A stretch of DNA of 40,590 nucleotides. Origin: a virus. Below, in pieces: positions 2,409 to 32,615 of this stretch. Under the pieces are notes generated by a model. That model did not search any database, was not told the DNA's origin, and saw only the letters and a list, made by a program, of their open reading frames with translations. A program made the translations under genes and the position numbers. Position 1 is the stretch's first letter; every line of letters begins with the position of its first letter. The stretch covers positions 1 through 40,590 of IMG/VR virus record IMGVR_UViG_3300036791_000599. One strand, written 5' to 3'.

Positions 2409-2587
2409 TTCTTCCCGTTTCCGTTCGTGGGCAGGGAGACGACGATGATGGCTACGGCTCCGACGATACCCAGCACGGCGAGAAGGTCGCTGGGCGTGTC
2501 ACGGTTCAGGATCAGCACGACGATCGCGAGCACGAACGCGATCACGCCGCACAGGATCAGGTAGACCGTTCTTCTGACCGGGTTCAT
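2405..2587 (-). CDS. Putative holin, two membrane segments
   Basis: The 60-residue product has a short basic N-terminus, hydrophobic segments at about 8-27 and 37-53, a polar turn with RDTPSD, and a charged C-terminus ending NGNGKK. Two spans with a charged tail is the class II holin layout. It is the gene immediately after the endolysin, overlapping it by 4 nt (ATGA), the usual phage position for a holin. The call rests on topology and neighbourhood, not on homology. Confidence 0.6.
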   Translation of the reverse strand: MNPVRRTVYLILCGVIAFVLAIVVLILNRDTPSDLLAVLGIVGAVAIIVVSLPTNGNGKK

Positions 2588-3468
2588 TCCGCGACACGGA
2601 CAAACCAGATCTGGGCTTGCGAGGTGGAGCGGTTGCGACGGTAGACACCGCCCCCGTTCGACTGGCTGCCGCTGGAACCCTCCGGGCTGGTGTTCGCCTC
2701 CACCGTCTTGAAGCTGGTGGCGTTCCCGGACTCGAACAAGCCCACGTGGTCGGCGACCCCGTCCCAGCCGAAGTCGAACAGCACCACGTCACCGGGCCGC
2801 GGGTCCTTCGTGATCGACAAGCCCCGGTGCCCGGCCCTCGCGTCGGCCAGCATGTAGGGGCAGTAGGAGTAGGCGGAGCCTTGCTGAAAGCTCGATGAGC
2901 CGCCCGCGTCGACCTCGTACCAGTAGCTGACCGCCATCGCGCAGTACGGCTGGTAGTTCATCCCGTACCAGCGGCCGTAGAAGGTGTCGTTGTTGCCGGT
3001 CTCGACGTAGCCGATATCCGCCTGGGCGGCGGCGAGCGCGCGCTCCCTCGTCGTTTTCTGTGGGGCCGGGGGCGGGTTGAACCGCTTGTAGGCGAGCGCG
3101 ATCAGGTTCTGGGCGTTCGTGTCCATGCACGGCTCACCCGCGTGGGGCAAGCCCTCCGGGACTCGCATGGAACGGAACGTGTTGAACGTCGGCTCGCCCA
3201 CGTTGCCGGTCGGCTGGATCCCCTGCTGGCGCTGCACCCCGGCGACACCGGAGTCACCCACGTTGCCGCCCGGCTTGCCGAGCGAGAACTGCTTGGAGAA
3301 CGCCCTGTCGAAGTTCTGCCAGGGCCAGCGGCCACCGCGGCTGACGGTGCGCTTGTACGCCTCCACGTCCTCCCCGTCCTCGTCACCGACATGGAGCGGA
3401 CGTGGGAACCCGACCACCGGAACCATCGGCCCGCCCGGGTAGCCCTTCTCCCACCAGCTGTCGCCCAC
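2584..3468 (-). CDS. Endolysin with C-terminal CHAP peptidase/amidase domain
   Basis: The 294-residue protein has an N-terminal half (about 1-130, with AYKRTVSRGGRWPWQNFDR) that looks like an actinophage-type wall-binding or lysin-associated domain, and a CHAP domain from about 140. The likely catalytic Cys176 is in NYQPYCAMAVSYWY, His241 in ADHVGLFES, with Glu258/Asn259 in KTVEANTSP. CHAP enzymes cut peptidoglycan peptide or amide bonds. The start is GTG 3468: no ribosome site is visible, but TAAGCT at 3480-3475 lies 6 nt upstream, fitting a leaderless mRNA. It heads the lysis block and is followed by three small membrane proteins. Confidence 0.85.
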   Translation of the reverse strand: MGDSWWEKGYPGGPMVPVVGFPRPLHVGDEDGEDVEAYKRTVSRGGRWPWQNFDRAFSKQFSLGKPGGNVGDSGVAGVQRQQGIQPTGNVGEPTFNTFRSMRVPEGLPHAGEPCMDTNAQNLIALAYKRFNPPPAPQKTTRERALAAAQADIGYVETGNNDTFYGRWYGMNYQPYCAMAVSYWYEVDAGGSSSFQQGSAYSYCPYMLADARAGHRGLSITKDPRPGDVVLFDFGWDGVADHVGLFESGNATSFKTVEANTSPEGSSGSQSNGGGVYRRNRSTSQAQIWFVRVAE

Positions 3469-5210: not shown

Positions 5211-6302
5211 GTGGCCGTAACGCCCCCGGCGATCGACAACGCCGAGCGCCTGTTCCAGGGCGGCGACTACCTCTCCAGCGCGCTCGTCGACTACCTGGCC
5301 TGGCTGCAGCGCAGGATCTCCGACCTGGAATCGACAGGCGGAAACCCCGATCTCACCAACTACCAGCTGCGGAACGAGAAGGGAGTGGCGAACGGCTACC
5401 CGACCCTGGACGCCACCGGGATCGTTCCCCTCTCCGAGCTTCCGCCCATCTCTCCTGGCCCCCCAGGAGCGACAGGCCCTGCGGGTCCCGGCGGACCGCA
5501 GGGCCTCCAAGGTCCGATCGGCCCCACAGGCCCCACAGGCCCGCAGGGCGGCGCAGGCCCGGCAGGCCCACAAGGCCCGCAGGGGCCGACAGGGGTGACG
5601 CCCGACCTGTCCGCCTACCAGCTGCTGTCGGCGCGAGGGAACCCGAACGGCTACCCGTCGCTCGACCCGACCGGGAAGGTTCCGCTGGCCCAGCTGCCAG
5701 CGATCGGCGCTGCCACCGCCGCGATCCCCGGCGAGATCCGCATGTGGGGCGGGGCGGCGATCCCGTCCGGTTACGGCAACTGGGTGTGGGCGGACGGCAC
5801 CGCCTACCCGAACGCCACCTACCCGAGCGCCGCCGCGAACATCGCCGCGGCCTGGCGCACGTTCGCGGGTGCGGTCGACCCGGGCGGCTCGAACTTCCGT
5901 GTCCCCGACCTGCGCGGGCTTGTCGCGATCGCCCTCGACGCGATGCCCGGCGGCGCGAGAGCGAACCGTCTCTCCCGCGCGGTCGCGGCGACGCTCGCGG
6001 GCAGAACCGGCGAGGAGTACCACACCCTCTCCACCGCCGAGCTTGCCTCGCACAACCACGGGGTAAACGATCCCCAGCACGAACATTCGGCGAGCGTCAC
6101 CGCCGCCTACAACTACGGCGCCGACGGCAGCGAGAACGTCGAGGTGGGGTCGCCGCAGACGCACATCGACAACGCCGGTCTGACCGTGGCGATGAGCTAC
6201 GCCGCGACCGGGGTCACGGTTCAGGCGAACGGAGGAGGAGGTGCCCATGAAAACGTCCCCCCGGCAGTCTTCGTCCCGTACATCGTCAAGCTCGACGGAT
6301 GA
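5211..6302 (+). CDS. Tail fibre with collagen-like repeats and tail-collar domain
   Basis: The 363-residue protein has an N-terminal helical part (1-45), a module [18 protein letters not shown] near 48-80, a Gly-X-Y collagen-like stretch (about 83-130), a second copy of the module ([18 protein letters not shown], about 133-165), and a phage tail collar domain from about 172 ([20 protein letters not shown], later [11 protein letters not shown] and ELASHNHGV). Collar domains sit at the distal end of fibres, so this is probably a trimeric receptor-binding protein. It starts at GTG 5211 behind a leaderless-type promoter and opens the virion module. Confidence 0.85.
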
Positions 6303-8076: not shown

Positions 8077-8400
8077 ATGGCGGGCGAGCTTCCGGTCACG
8101 GTCAACCTGGACGCCTACCAGGGCGACTCCTGGTTTCAGACGTTCCGGCTGCTCCAGGACACCACCCCCGTCGATCTGACCGGGGCGTCCGTCACCAGCG
8201 AATGTCGCGGCCCCGGCACGCTCGTCTACGACATGCCGGTGCAGATCGGCGACCCGACCACCGGGCAGATCACCCTGGTTCTCCCCGACGGGATCAGGGC
8301 CGGAAGCTACCGCTACGACGTGCAGGTGCAGAAGGCCGGGACCACCACCACCTGGGTCAGCGGCCACCTTGAGGTCGCCTCGGAGATCACCCCGTCGTGA
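8077..8400 (+). CDS. Small beta-rich fibre/baseplate adaptor-like protein
   Basis: The 107-residue protein is almost entirely beta-strand by pattern ([18 protein letters not shown], then [14 protein letters not shown] and [13 protein letters not shown]). This resembles the N-terminal domain of baseplate upper proteins (BppU type), which links fibres to the tail. It starts directly after the previous stop and overlaps the collagen-like fibre gene by 4 nt, consistent with forming a fibre attachment unit. Confidence 0.6.
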
Positions 8401-9563
8401 GCGTCGTCGAGGTCGTCGAAGGGCCAGCCCCGGTCATCGAGATCGTCCAGGGCACCTCCTCGGTCGTCCAGGTGTTCGAGGAGCAGGGGCCGATGGGGCC
8501 TCAGGGAGTCCCAGGCCCGGAGGGGCCGCAGGGGATCACCGGCGCGCAGGGGCCTGTGGGGCCGACCGGTGCGACCGGCTCGACCGGCGCCCAGGGGCCG
8601 CAAGGGTCGACGGGCGCGACAGGCCCGCAAGGCCCCCAGGGCACCACCGGTTTGACCGGCCCGCAAGGCCCGGTCGGAAACACGGGGCCGCAAGGCCCGG
8701 CTGGCCCAGCTGGCGCCGACTCGACCGTCCCCGGGCCACAAGGCCCGCAGGGGAACCCGGGCGCGACCGGGCCACAAGGTCCGACGGGCGCCACGGGCGC
8801 GACAGGCCCGCAAGGCCCGACAGGCTTGCCGGGCTACCCCTCCACCACCGGCAAGCTCAACGACATTCTTACCGTCACCACCGACGGTGGCCCCCCGACC
8901 TGGCAGCCGGTGTCGGGCGGCACGATCGACCCGGCGGTGTGGCAGGCGAAGTCCGAGAAGAACCAGCCCTCGGGCTATGTCGGCCTCGACGCGAGTAGCA
9001 ACATCAACCTCGTCGCCGCCGCCCAGGTCTACTGGGGCGGCGACACAAGCGTCTATCGCTCGTCGGCGGGTGTGCTCAAGACGGACGGGACTATGCGCGT
9101 CGGTCAGTACTTCGACGTGGCTTTCAGTGACACGGGGCAACTGCGCTTTGGGTCGTTGGTGGACACAAACCTTTACCGCGCGGGGCCATCGAACCTCAAG
9201 ACAGACGGGCGGCTAGATGTTGGTGCCGACCTTACTTCGGCGGCGAACCTGTGGGCGCGGTACGGGGCCGCGATCCAGGTAAGGATCGGGTACGTCGGGT
9301 CGGGAGTGTCGGGTCTTGAGTTTGGTTCGGCAGCCGACACGAACCTCTACCGCTCGGCGGCTAACAGTCTCAAGACCGACGGCAACCTCACCGTCGGCGC
9401 GGGGGTCGGAGTTGTGGGCGGCGTGACCGTCAGTGGCGACCCCGGGACCGCCGGTTACACGTCCCTGTACCTGCTCGTCAGCGGGACGGGGTCGCGTCAG
9501 GTCGCGGTTGGCGCGCCTGACTCAGGCGGGACGGGTGCTAGGGCGCTCATCGTGCCGAACTGA
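8397..9563 (+). CDS. Collagen-like tail fibre with repeated C-terminal modules
   Basis: The 388-residue protein has a short beta-rich N-terminus ([19 protein letters not shown]), a Gly-X-Y region at about 31-146 broken once at ADSTVPG, and a C-terminal part with three related modules: [35 protein letters not shown] and [18 protein letters not shown]. Collagen-like stretches form trimeric shafts, and the repeats probably form a beta-helical segment near the tip. No chaperone or peptidase domain is seen at the C-terminus. Start is GTG 8397, overlapping the adaptor stop. Confidence 0.8.
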
Positions 9564-15930: not shown

Positions 15931-15939
15931 GCCGTAGGA

Positions 15940-21765: not shown

Positions 21766-24700
21766 ATGGCTGCTGGGGCGCCCAGAAGCGTCCTGCTCTC
21801 CCCGGTCACAGGGGCCACGACCCTGATGCGCCAGGACCAGGGGCAGGACTACCAGGGGAGTGCTGGCGGCCAGGTTCTCGCGCTCGGCAACGCGCGGGTC
21901 GACGCGATCAAGCCTGACCCGGGCGGGTTCGGAACCGCCCTCTACTACACCCTCGTCGGGGGTCCGAACGCCGGGCAGCAGTTCTACGTCGGGCACGCAC
22001 AGCCGACGGTGAAGGTGGGGCAGATGCTGAAGCCCGGGCAGCCGATCGCGAGGCTCGTCTCGCCCGGCCTCGGGCCGAGTCCGTCGTACTGGACGGAGAT
22101 CGGGTTCGCGAAAGGCGGTGTCCCCGAGTACGGGATGGATCAGGGCGGCGCCAAGTTCGACGCGTATCTGAAGGGCCTCCCAGGAATCCAGCCCTACAAG
22201 CCTCCGTCGGTTGTTCCTCCCGGTACGTCCGCCTACACGCCGCTGAAGGCCGCCCAGATCGACACGTTCCTGAAGGCACGCAACTCGCCGCTCGCGGGGA
22301 TGGGCGCCGCGTTCGTCGCCGCTGGCGCCAAGTACGGGGTCGACCCTGGTGTTCTCGTTGCCATCTCAGGCGGGGAGTCGAGTTTCGGACAGAAGCTCTT
22401 CCGTCCTTTCAACCCGTTCGGGTACGGGAAGCAGGCGTTCCCATCGTTCCAGGCGGCGATCAACCGGGTCGCCTCGGATCTGGGGACGAACTACAACCTC
22501 AGTTCGATCTCCTCGATCGGGAGCAGGTACTCACCGCCCGCCTCGAACCCGAACTGGGTTCCGAACGTTCTGAACTTCTACCAGGCGCTCACGGGCCATC
22601 CCTACGGGCACGGGACGGTGCCCACCGCGACCGATTACAGTACGCCGAATGGGAGTGGTGCTCCAGCTGGGGGCGGCGTCACACCCGCCGGGGCCGCGGG
22701 GTTCACCGTCACCGCTGTTCCGCCGGGACAGGGAGTAGGGGGAACAGACACGGCCGCCACGGCAGCCCCACAGACGGTCTACGTCGGGCCGACGCTCACG
22801 TCGCGCACCAGGGACCCGCTCGGTGGCGAAGCGCCGATCCTGAGTCCGCAGCCGAAGGTGACAGCAGCGCCAGCGGCGGGGTCTCCGGGCGTCGCAGCCA
22901 CCGGCCCCGCCGTGGGCGGGATCGACATTCCCTCGATCATCGCCCAGGTCAACCAGCAGTCGCTCGAAGCCGCGAAGGCGGCGATCGCCGCCCAGGTCAC
23001 CGGGTTCACGAACGCGCAGCAGTTCGAGACCGGCCTCGGTCAGCAGCAGGCGGCGGCGATCGCGGGCATGGCCGACGCCGCCGCGAAGTATCTGCAGCCG
23101 TTCGGAGCGTTGGCGAACCAGCAGTACCAGGAGGGCGTCGCGAGCGAACAGAACCTGGCGCAGGGTTTCAGCGGCGCAGCCGCCCAGGACGTGAGCGACC
23201 GGGCCGCTCAGATGAACCGCGACCTGCAGGCGGCAGGCTCGCCGATCGGAGTTCCCGACCAGGGACAGACCCTTGGTGGCGTGCTGATGGGGACGACCGG
23301 AGCGATCCCCAGTCGTCTTCTCGGCGTGCAGGGCGGGGCCGCGACAGCCGCCGCGCTCAACCAGCCGTTCTCCGCGATCGCCCAGGGTGAGGCCGGACAG
23401 ACCGCAGCCCAGGGCGCGGCGATCGAGAAGGCACGCGCCTACCAGGGTCAGATTCTCGCCGCGCAGGCCCAGCTGCCGACGCTCTACAACCAGTTCCGCA
23501 CGGCAAGCCTGGGAAGCGCGATCCAGCTGGCGGCGCTGCAGAAGCCGATCGTGACCCGCACGCCGTCCGGGATCGCCCTGGTGAACCCGATCACCGGCGC
23601 GGTGACGATCCCCCCGAACGTCGGCAACGCACGGATCAGCCCGCAGATCTCGAAGAGCACCGGCTGGTGGACGGACATTTTCGGCACGAAGATCGTCGAC
23701 TCGAAGGGCAACTACATCCCGTACCCGACGGGCGGCGCGGGGGTTGTCCCGGGCGGGATCACGAAGGTCGGCAACGCCCTCGTCAGGATCAACCCGGACT
23801 ACAGCACCACGGTGCTCTACCAGGGGCCGTCGTCGGGCAACAGGATCTCTTCGGGCGGCAACGTGTACGAGGAGAACCCGAACAAGCCCGGCCAGTGGAC
23901 GCAGATCATCAAGGCTGGCGACAAGCCCGCCCAACTCATCCACGATTCCAGGACCGGCTACACCGCGACCTTCAACCCGAGCACGGCGTCCCTGACGGTT
24001 ATCGACCCGGGCACCGGTCCCGCCTCGATGCAGCCGCAGGTGAGGAACAACGCGAACGGCGTGCCGGTGGTGGTGTACCCGGTTCAGAACAAGAACGGAA
24101 CCATCTCCTGGAGTTCGGTGACGCCGTCAGGCCCGGCTGGGGCGGCGAAGGTCACGACCCCGAGAAACGCGCAGACGGGGACGACCGTTGTCCGCGGGAT
24201 CACCTACCAGACCGAACGCCAGCCGGATGGTTCGTGGGCGATTTCGGTTGCCCCAAACGGCCAGCCGATCGTGGTGAAGGGGCCGAAGGCAGCCGGTGGT
24301 CTCACCGGGTCGGGCATCGGTTCTGTCACCGCCAGGGCTTTCGCGGCGATCAAGGCCGCAGCGGCGAACATCGCGCCTCTGAAAGGCGCGGCGGGGCAGG
24401 TCACGAACGCGGGGCACAGCCCGGAGCCGTACCAGGCGACCCTCCAGAACGCGATCAACATGTACCCGTCCCCGAACCCGCCGAAGTGGTGGGTGAACAA
24501 GGTCACCCAGAGAACCAACAACGCCTACCGCACGTACGTGAACGGGCTTGCGACCGCCTTCCAGAAGGGCACGTCGGACACCCCCGCCCAGGATTCGGTG
24601 ACCACCTTCCGGGCGCTGAACGCCGAAGGCTTCCCGCCCGCGATGGTGCTCAACGCCGTTCTGTCCGCCTACGGGATCAGCAGGGCGCAGCTGCAAAGGC

Positions 24701-24906
24701 AGCTGAATCTGTCCACCAACCCGTTCGCGAACGCGATCACGTCCGGGGTTGTCGGGCCGACGGCACAGCCCCCGGCCGCGGGCACGGCAGCCGCCTTCCG
24801 GCCGACCGGCAGGTTCGCCGTCGACCTGGTGCAGGCCATCCAGTCTGCGAAGCAGGGTGACCGTGGCGCGCAGGCGTGGCTGACCGCGCGAGGTCAGACC
24901 TGGTGA
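21766..24906 (+). CDS. Virion-associated lysin: degenerate M23-like plus glucosaminidase-like domains
   Basis: The 1046-residue protein starts with a LytM/M23-shaped domain (about 1-125) that keeps YVGHAQPTVKVGQMLKPGQP but lacks the first metal motif and has SYWTEIGF where HLHFEV is expected, so it is probably inactive. Residues about 160-278 look like a glucosaminidase/lytic transglycosylase domain with a likely catalytic Glu near 204 (AISGGESSFG) and NPFGYG. The rest is Ala/Gln-rich helix and Gly/Thr/Pro-rich beta sequence. It probably opens the host wall during DNA entry. ATG 21766 directly follows the previous stop. Confidence 0.7.
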   Translation: MAAGAPRSVLLSPVTGATTLMRQDQGQDYQGSAGGQVLALGNARVDAIKPDPGGFGTALYYTLVGGPNAGQQFYVGHAQPTVKVGQMLKPGQPIARLVSPGLGPSPSYWTEIGFAKGGVPEYGMDQGGAKFDAYLKGLPGIQPYKPPSVVPPGTSAYTPLKAAQIDTFLKARNSPLAGMGAAFVAAGAKYGVDPGVLVAISGGESSFGQKLFRPFNPFGYGKQAFPSFQAAINRVASDLGTNYNLSSISSIGSRYSPPASNPNWVPNVLNFYQALTGHPYGHGTVPTATDYSTPNGSGAPAGGGVTPAGAAGFTVTAVPPGQGVGGTDTAATAAPQTVYVGPTLTSRTRDPLGGEAPILSPQPKVTAAPAAGSPGVAATGPAVGGIDIPSIIAQVNQQSLEAAKAAIAAQVTGFTNAQQFETGLGQQQAAAIAGMADAAAKYLQPFGALANQQYQEGVASEQNLAQGFSGAAAQDVSDRAAQMNRDLQAAGSPIGVPDQGQTLGGVLMGTTGAIPSRLLGVQGGAATAAALNQPFSAIAQGEAGQTAAQGAAIEKARAYQGQILAAQAQLPTLYNQFRTASLGSAIQLAALQKPIVTRTPSGIALVNPITGAVTIPPNVGNARISPQISKSTGWWTDIFGTKIVDSKGNYIPYPTGGAGVVPGGITKVGNALVRINPDYSTTVLYQGPSSGNRISSGGNVYEENPNKPGQWTQIIKAGDKPAQLIHDSRTGYTATFNPSTASLTVIDPGTGPASMQPQVRNNANGVPVVVYPVQNKNGTISWSSVTPSGPAGAAKVTTPRNAQTGTTVVRGITYQTERQPDGSWAISVAPNGQPIVVKGPKAAGGLTGSGIGSVTARAFAAIKAAAANIAPLKGAAGQVTNAGHSPEPYQATLQNAINMYPSPNPPKWWVNKVTQRTNNAYRTYVNGLATAFQKGTSDTPAQDSVTTFRALNAEGFPPAMVLNAVLSAYGISRAQLQRQLNLSTNPFANAITSGVVGPTAQPPAAGTAAAFRPTGRFAVDLVQAIQSAKQGDRGAQAWLTARGQTW

Positions 24907-31247: not shown

Positions 31248-31574
31248 TCAGACGTTGTAGTGCGGGAACTTCTCACCGTCGAAGGCGCCGATCACGCGCC
31301 GCATCCCCTGCGGCGCCGTCACCGAGTTGCCCGATCTGCGCTGGCCCCAGATCTCAGCGACGAGCGCGGCCTGCCGCTCGCTGCTGAAGCTGACGTTCGA
31401 GCCGGACACACCGGTTGCCCCGCAGTCTGCGAGCGCCCGGTAGTACAGGCACGCCGCCGGGTCGCCCATCGTCGCGTTCGGCAACTCGCTGAGCGGCGCG
31501 TGACCGAACGCCACCCTCGCCATGTTCACGATCGCCAGGGTGTCGCCGATCTCCTCGTGGAACTGCGTTCCCAT
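31248..31574 (-). CDS. Unknown 108-residue protein
   Basis: ATG 31574 follows GAGAGGAGAACGTG. The sequence is mixed alpha/beta with two Cys (AACLYYRALADCGATG) and a Ser-rich middle. No motif is recognised. It follows a 236-nt non-coding stretch with strong inverted repeats, so it may have its own promoter or leader. Confidence 0.6.
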   Translation of the reverse strand: MGTQFHEEIGDTLAIVNMARVAFGHAPLSELPNATMGDPAACLYYRALADCGATGVSGSNVSFSSERQAALVAEIWGQRRSGNSVTAPQGMRRVIGAFDGEKFPHYNV

Positions 31575-31810: not shown

Positions 31811-32176
31811 CTAGGTCAGCCCGCAGACGCGAGCCGTCGTCCACTCCCTCCACGAGTGGCTGTCACGTTTCCAGACCAGGTAGGCACGGTAGGTCTGCTC
31901 CGACGGGGACGCCTGGGCAGGCGATCCCCGTCCACCAACCGACCACCAGGTCGTGAGGCTGAACTGGTATCCGCCGACTCCACCGCCGGACACCGTCCAC
32001 TCGTCGGAGCGGCCTACGTGTCCGTAGACCTCGTACCGGTGGATGCAGGCGGCCTGAGATAGCCACCACGCCGGATAGTGCGGGTACGCCGCTGCCAGAG
32101 CAGCAGGTGAATCGACGAGGCCGTAGCCGAACCAGCCAAGAACGAAAGCAAGTAAGAAAGCCAGGTGGGCACGAAT
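31811..32176 (-). CDS. Secreted Rpf/transglycosylase-like protein with no canonical start
   Basis: The frame has a hydrophobic secretion or anchor segment (AHLAFLLAFVLGWFGYGL), AAAYPHYPAWW, then CIHRYE with the likely catalytic Glu, GGYQFSLTTWWSVGG and a C-terminal AYLVWKRDSHSWREW, the pattern of small actinobacterial transglycosylase-like (Rpf/lysozyme fold) proteins. No ATG, GTG or TTG lies between the in-frame stop upstream and the catalytic part. ATT 32176, spaced well after AAAGGAGAGGGGGTC, is used here as the provisional start. The alternative is GTG 32172 in another frame followed by a -1 shift, or a one-base sequence error. It probably cuts peptidoglycan. Confidence 0.55.
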   Translation of the reverse strand: MRAHLAFLLAFVLGWFGYGLVDSPAALAAAYPHYPAWWLSQAACIHRYEVYGHVGRSDEWTVSGGGVGGYQFSLTTWWSVGGRGSPAQASPSEQTYRAYLVWKRDSHSWREWTTARVCGLT

Positions 32177-32204
32177 GACCCCCTCTCCTTTCCTCGCTTA
32201 CAGG

Positions 32205-32615
32205 TCATTTGCTCCAGATCGACGAGCGGGGCGATGTGCCGTACTGGAACTCTCTTCGCAGCATCGTCGCCATGACTGAATCGCCGAGCCTGTAGCGGGC
32301 GGTGACGTGCGCCATCACGTCGATCATCGAGACGTCCGGCACCGCTTCGATTGACTTGATCGCACTCGCCTTCGACTTCGCGGCGACGATCCTCATGCCG
32401 CTCTCCGACAGCCGCCAGTTGCGCTTCGCCGGGTCGAAGTCGAGCATCCCGTACCTTTTCATCCACGAGCAGCGGATGGCAACTGAGGCCAGCTGGTCGT
32501 CCAGTCCGAGCGACGAGGCAAGCTCGGCTGTTGTGACCCAGCCCTCGTTGTCGCCGAGGTCTGCGATCTTCAGCATCAGATCCAGGTCGCGGAAGTCGTA
32601 GAGCGTGAGGCTCAT
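32205..32615 (-). CDS. Winged-helix-like protein
   Basis: ATG 32615 overlaps the upstream stop (ATGA); the longer frame is a shadow. The 136-residue protein has an N-terminal winged-helix-like pattern (NEGWVTTAELASSLGLDDQL, then KRYGMLDFDPAKRNWRLSES), like small phage wHTH regulators. The C-terminal half is helical with AHVTARYRLGDSVMATMLRR. It is coupled to another wHTH-like gene upstream, so the two may act together in transcription control. Confidence 0.6.
   Translation of the reverse strand: MSLTLYDFRDLDLMLKIADLGDNEGWVTTAELASSLGLDDQLASVAIRCSWMKRYGMLDFDPAKRNWRLSESGMRIVAAKSKASAIKSIEAVPDVSMIDVMAHVTARYRLGDSVMATMLRREFQYGTSPRSSIWSK

Follow-up and report, generated by a model that had tools for sequence, protein, structure and literature searches.

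How does a phage gene begin translation when its reading frame offers no ATG, GTG or TTG ahead of the catalytic part of its product? The question is raised by an Rpf/transglycosylase-like gene in a 40.6-kb virus record, analysed here over its whole length of 40,590 nucleotides (the window), in which podovirus-type terminase, portal, head and internal virion genes are present. To our knowledge, starts other than ATG, GTG and TTG occur in just a handful of bacterial genes. Gene finders disregard such starts, so that genes carrying them are missed or cut past the catalytic residue, as the window gene would be. The features at issue are as follows.

32205 to 32615, minus strand: upstream gene, 136 aa, without a family match, ending 28 nt 5' of ATT 32176
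32185 to 32190, minus strand: Shine-Dalgarno sequence AAGGAG, within the longer purine run GAGGAAAGGAGAGGGGG
32174 to 32176, minus strand: proposed start codon ATT, 8 nt past AAGGAG, aligned with ATC, CTG, TTG, GTG and ATG in 28 relatives
31811 to 32176, minus strand: Rpf-like transglycosylase gene, 121 codons from the ATT plus TAG, assigned from the open frame, PF06737 and the family alignment
32093 to 32176, minus strand: hydrophobic, signal-peptide-like leader, hydropathy 2.28, ending ALA|A, with a modelled helix at residues 2-20
31811 to 32050, minus strand: Rpf/transglycosylase-like domain with CIHRYE (Glu49 at 32030-32032), GGYQFS and SWREW
32014 to 32172, minus strand: alternative GTG frame, 52 codons, hydrophobic in the window, rejected as the gene, and not a trait of the family
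31248 to 31574, minus strand: downstream gene, 108 aa, with ATG and AGGAG, without a family match
2584 to 3468, minus strand: CHAP-domain gene (PF05257), adjoined by small ORFs, for example 2405-2587

The minus-strand frame that contains the leader, CIHRYE and GGYQFS is open from 32197 to the TAG at 31811, and its translation reads ARKGEGV-IRAHLAFLLAFVLGWFGYGLVDSPAALAAAYPHYPAWWLSQAACIHRYE...GGYQFS...SWREW...CGLT. The first in-frame canonical codon is GTG 31993, which lies 3' of the Glu49 codon (32032-32030). Upstream, AAGGAG at 32190-32185 ends 8 nt before the ATT, and in its best register the purine run forms a duplex of -10.5 kcal/mol with the anti-Shine-Dalgarno sequence. A GTG at 32172, 12 nt past AAGGAG, opens a different hydrophobic frame that closes at TAG 32016-32014. 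These observations bear out three claims of an earlier note on this DNA: that the Rpf frame lacks ATG, GTG and TTG ahead of its catalytic part, that a strong ribosome site precedes ATT 32176, and that GTG 32172 opens another hydrophobic frame of 52 codons with its stop at 32014. Codon-usage scoring of the leader gave no decision between the ATT and GTG frames, and RNA folding of the start region revealed no unusual stability (z 0.66). Automatic flagging picked out five other window frames with a possible missing canonical start; on inspection these proved to possess an obvious canonical start, to lie at a contig end or to have weak or later starts, and a flagged late-start gene at 15939 has a good ATG with a Shine-Dalgarno sequence. 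The Rpf-like frame is thus the only coding frame of the window that truly lacks a canonical start.

The product matches PF06737 with an E-value of 2.3e-7 (31.8 bits, against a curated cut-off of 27). A profile search of the PDB returned Rpf structures exclusively, with RpfE, RpfC and RpfB best, and a fold search with a structure model (pLDDT 79; leader helix) gave top matches that were all RpfC, RpfE or RpfB (E 0.13, probability 0.96), residues 54-67 forming a low-confidence loop. All 15 aligned family members also match PF06737 (E <= 0.1), and the catalytic-type Glu49 is invariant in family alignments A3 and A4, at a Cys-to-Glu spacing unlike that of RpfE. Judged from sequence and model, the gene product is predicted to be an Rpf-type muralytic enzyme, and its leader is probably a Sec export signal. 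RpfB, RpfC and RpfE share with it the PF06737 domain, the catalytic-type Glu and an exported leader, whereas the window gene is phage-borne and very short, has CI-x3-E in place of the CESGG spacing and lacks a canonical start.

Searches at the nucleotide and single-protein levels found no close relative of the window phage in the collections covered, so the window ATT is a single observation. A capsid-based search returned many distant phages, and PF06737 was above its cut-off in none of the 23 records scanned. Distant phage homologues of the gene were aligned, and three scans of viral contigs were run with successive alignments, together with genome searches. These recovered about 28 distinct relatives sharing the hallmarks C[IV]-x-x-x-E, GG-x-QF and SWREW, and with the window 29 members were tabulated. 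Every member has a hydrophobic leader when read in the Rpf frame (hydropathy 1.95-3.35), the other frames being much less hydrophobic except for moderate values in the window, L238, L244 and L246. Shine-Dalgarno 4-mers lie 8-10 nt upstream of the assigned start in most, being weak in L212 and L239.

Like the window gene, its nearest relatives, L095/L220 and L096/L224, lack a canonical start. By a strict count, which requires that no canonical codon stand just beside the assigned start, 14-15 of the 29 members, the window included, have no usable canonical start ahead of the leader. Those with CTG are L220, L230, L234, L237 (where a TTG is present far upstream) and L242; those with ATC are L221 (where a CTG after the ATC may be the start), L224, L225, L228, L231, L232, L239, L254 and L212. 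The starts of L229, L247 and L240 are ambiguous, because each has a CTG with a canonical codon two to three codons later (GTG in L229 and L247, ATG in L240). An ATG overlapping the Shine-Dalgarno sequence in L224, L225 and L230 was rejected as a start; it lies in another frame and is missing in L220. TTG, GTG or ATG occupies the position homologous to the ATT in 11 of 29 members, and the full column reads ATC 9, CTG 8, TTG 5, ATG 5, ATT 1 and GTG 1. ATG-like codons thus fill this column in 29/29 members and reach at most 4-5/29 in the six preceding and five following columns, a statistic that is partly circular, since the position was assigned by eye before tabulation, and so supportive rather than independent; ATC and CTG codons are also common in GC-rich hydrophobic leaders. 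The near-twins L225 and L230 differ in starting with ATC and CTG, respectively. In the domain tree, of which few branches are well supported, canonical and non-canonical members are interspersed with at least seven switches.

Other Rpf genes, viral and cellular, with an identifiable leader and processed in the same way, have a canonical start before the leader in 86 of 87 cases. At the homologous position, 17 of 29 family members lack a canonical start compared to 1 of 87 other Rpf genes (Fisher p 8e-12), and by this sequence comparison the deficit in the family exceeds chance. A more distant phage Rpf gene, L099 (frame from 2683), has no canonical start before its leader; it has ATC CGA 9 nt past GGAGGAGG, with an out-of-frame ATG between.

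Copies of the family were also found in 7 of 399 genomes of one class and in 0 of 395 genomes of the class of Actinokineospora, in the same phylum; the E-value limits differed between the two classes (1e-15 and 1e-22), and the weakest of the seven matches, 1.6e-28, meets both. An additional CTG case comes from a cellular assembly, L283, in which the CTG follows GGAG. The genome-borne L282 and L283 have the common context CAT CTG CGT ATC, L282 with an in-frame ATG further upstream; this context suggests that integrated copies may also use CTG starts. A further copy, L284 (G1060 C348), is broken by two stop codons and is probably a decayed prophage gene. The prophage that holds L240 is part of a sequenced genome.

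The earlier note had offered three explanations for the window gene, namely initiation at ATT, a -1 shift of ribosomes or an indel, and had proposed comparing the N-termini of homologues. That comparison, in which relatives carry ATC or CTG, or else TTG, GTG or ATG, at the ATT position, favours the first, disfavours the second and excludes the third as a general cause. Initiation at GTG 32172 or in an upstream frame, followed by a -1 shift into the Rpf frame, would make use of a GTG just past the Shine-Dalgarno sequence whose frame is hydrophobic in the window. The 12-nt spacing to this GTG argues against it, as do the lack of any slippery site seen by eye, the mutually unrelated upstream genes of relatives and the orthologues with TTG, GTG and ATG that start exactly at the ATT position. 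In most relatives, moreover, the GTG frame is unconserved and non-hydrophobic (maximum hydropathy of frame f1 includes 0.08, 0.12, 0.14, -0.28 and -1.31), and in many it meets a stop at the start codon, making a frameshift very unlikely. Alternatively, two overlapping genes could share one Shine-Dalgarno sequence, a 52-residue holin-like membrane peptide starting at GTG 32172 and the Rpf enzyme at ATT. The GTG frame does have a hydrophobic segment and a tail rich in Arg, and the +1 frame is moderately hydrophobic in the window, L238, L244 and L246 (1.47-1.57 for the three relatives). However, Ala/Leu codons yield such frames as a by-product, which is probably their origin in these three relatives; a hydrophobic +1 frame is missing in L220, L224, L225 and most others, and the codon score of the GTG frame is negative in the window. 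We consider this arrangement quite unlikely.

A sequencing or assembly error could have deleted a canonical start codon or put the frame out of register in a lone metagenomic virus record that has no close relatives. Yet 14-15 distinct sequences from independent assemblies of many metagenomes equally lack a canonical start, and error is the least probable of the explanations weighed here. Initiation one codon 5' of the ATT, at GTC 32179, has a precedent in Streptomyces sigR (PMC5472188). This GTC lies 5 nt past AAGGAG, whereas the ATT has the more usual spacing and is the codon that aligns with the ATC, CTG, TTG and ATG of relatives; we judge a GTC start unlikely.

Initiation at the ATT itself is the reading we favour: the gene product is probably a small muralytic enzyme of the Rpf type, exported by the Sec route and translated from ATT 32176, with a near-cognate start that throttles translation and a purine-rich Shine-Dalgarno sequence that rescues it. 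The ATT would be decoded as fMet; the near-cognate codon, disfavoured by IF3, would hold translation to a fraction of ATG output, and the strong Shine-Dalgarno sequence would keep it above zero. Near-cognate starts are repressed by IF3, and an extended Shine-Dalgarno sequence gives partial rescue at the GTC of Streptomyces sigR (PMC5472188). In poor medium the AUU of S. aureus cvfC1 and the AUA of ccpN give roughly 10% of the output obtained with AUG, and infC starts with AUU in E. coli and AUA in S. aureus (PMC13009471). The parallel between the phage family and starts of the sigR, cvfC1 and ccpN type is close. Like the window gene, sigR, which belongs to an actinobacterium, has a non-canonical start past an extended ribosome-binding site (PMC5472188), but it is a host regulatory gene whose GTC start was demonstrated experimentally. 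Like the family, infC, cvfC1 and ccpN combine a weak start with a strong or extended Shine-Dalgarno sequence (PMC13009471); these genes are bacterial with a conserved codon, whereas the family's codon switches among ATC, CTG, ATT and canonical starts.

The unusual starts in many related phage genes suggest that production of the enzyme may be deliberately kept low. Throttling would matter in that, without it, export of a wall-cutting enzyme early in infection, or by a lysogen, would damage the host cell prematurely. We infer that selection has favoured weak initiation as a means of restricting an early, secreted wall enzyme, early expression being putative; the main alternative is that some near-cognate codons are tolerated rather than selected. 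Tentatively, and with some doubt, the genes may form a mobile early wall-enzyme family selected for a weak start, in which the codon turns over (ATC, CTG, ATT, TTG) and the weakness and strong Shine-Dalgarno sequence are kept. If so, production would track the IF3 level or physiological state of the host, and enzyme dose would be set by host condition. With its many independent cases, the phage family offers a natural series for relating weak starts to protein dose. Searches of the open-access literature found no earlier description of the family, and none of phage enzymes that as a family use near-cognate start codons.

The genomic setting bears on what the enzyme might do. The Rpf-like gene lies in the early cluster beside non-lysis genes, about 29 kb from the CHAP gene, which is likely the endolysin of the window phage; a lysis-cassette location with a holin, as for a terminal endolysin, was not found for the Rpf-like gene. 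For terminal lysis the phage has this separate CHAP gene; the Rpf-like enzyme likely brings its benefit through wall remodelling of limited extent, or by stimulating slow-growing hosts in the manner of an Rpf. The earlier note had found it unusual for a wall enzyme to lie in the early cluster, which holds for the window phage; among relatives, however, an early or integration-region location recurs, with integrase, RDF, ERF and RecT genes as neighbours in several cases. The phages carrying the relatives otherwise differ from one another, and no portal protein was found in the first six relatives (some of these records being fragments), which implies that these phages have the gene in common but not the backbone. 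Why phages of GC-rich actinobacteria should possess an early, secreted Rpf-like enzyme is a question that the family raises.

Start codon and +1-frame stop share nucleotides in many members, as CTGA, TTGA, ATGA, ATC followed by CTGA, CTAA or CTAG, or TAATC. Part of these overlaps arise by themselves, since codon 2 often starts with A (Arg or Lys). A long upstream ORF forms the overlapped frame in at least five relatives (L228, L239, L242, L247 and L254); it is an integrase in L242 and L247 and a recombination directionality factor in L239. Because the start overlaps an upstream stop, translational reinitiation probably contributes in these five; non-AUG reinitiation has been demonstrated in the literature using matched mutant initiator tRNAs. 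The window gene does not need such coupling, since its upstream gene ends 28 nt before the ATT.

Rpf-type domains are used by phages elsewhere. The Rpf motif of mycobacteriophage tape measure proteins belongs to a virion-borne entry enzyme (PMC1796659), whereas the window gene is predicted to be an early gene on its own with a secreted product. Mycobacterium phage prophi79-1 gp102, annotated as RpfC-like, and Streptomyces phage 'hydrolases' are likewise small free-standing Rpf genes, some beside non-lysis genes, but they have annotated canonical starts and are more distant (35-40% identity). The window phage may carry further virion-borne wall enzymes, because a 1046-aa virion protein (21766-24906, plus strand) weakly matches M23 peptidase and SLT transglycosylase, both close to the N-terminus. 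A glycosyltransferase-like gene (PF13524; 16495-17787, plus strand) is flanked by the major capsid protein and adaptor genes, and collagen-like repeats occur at 5211-6302 and 8397-9563 (plus strand), one of the two with a tail collar domain.
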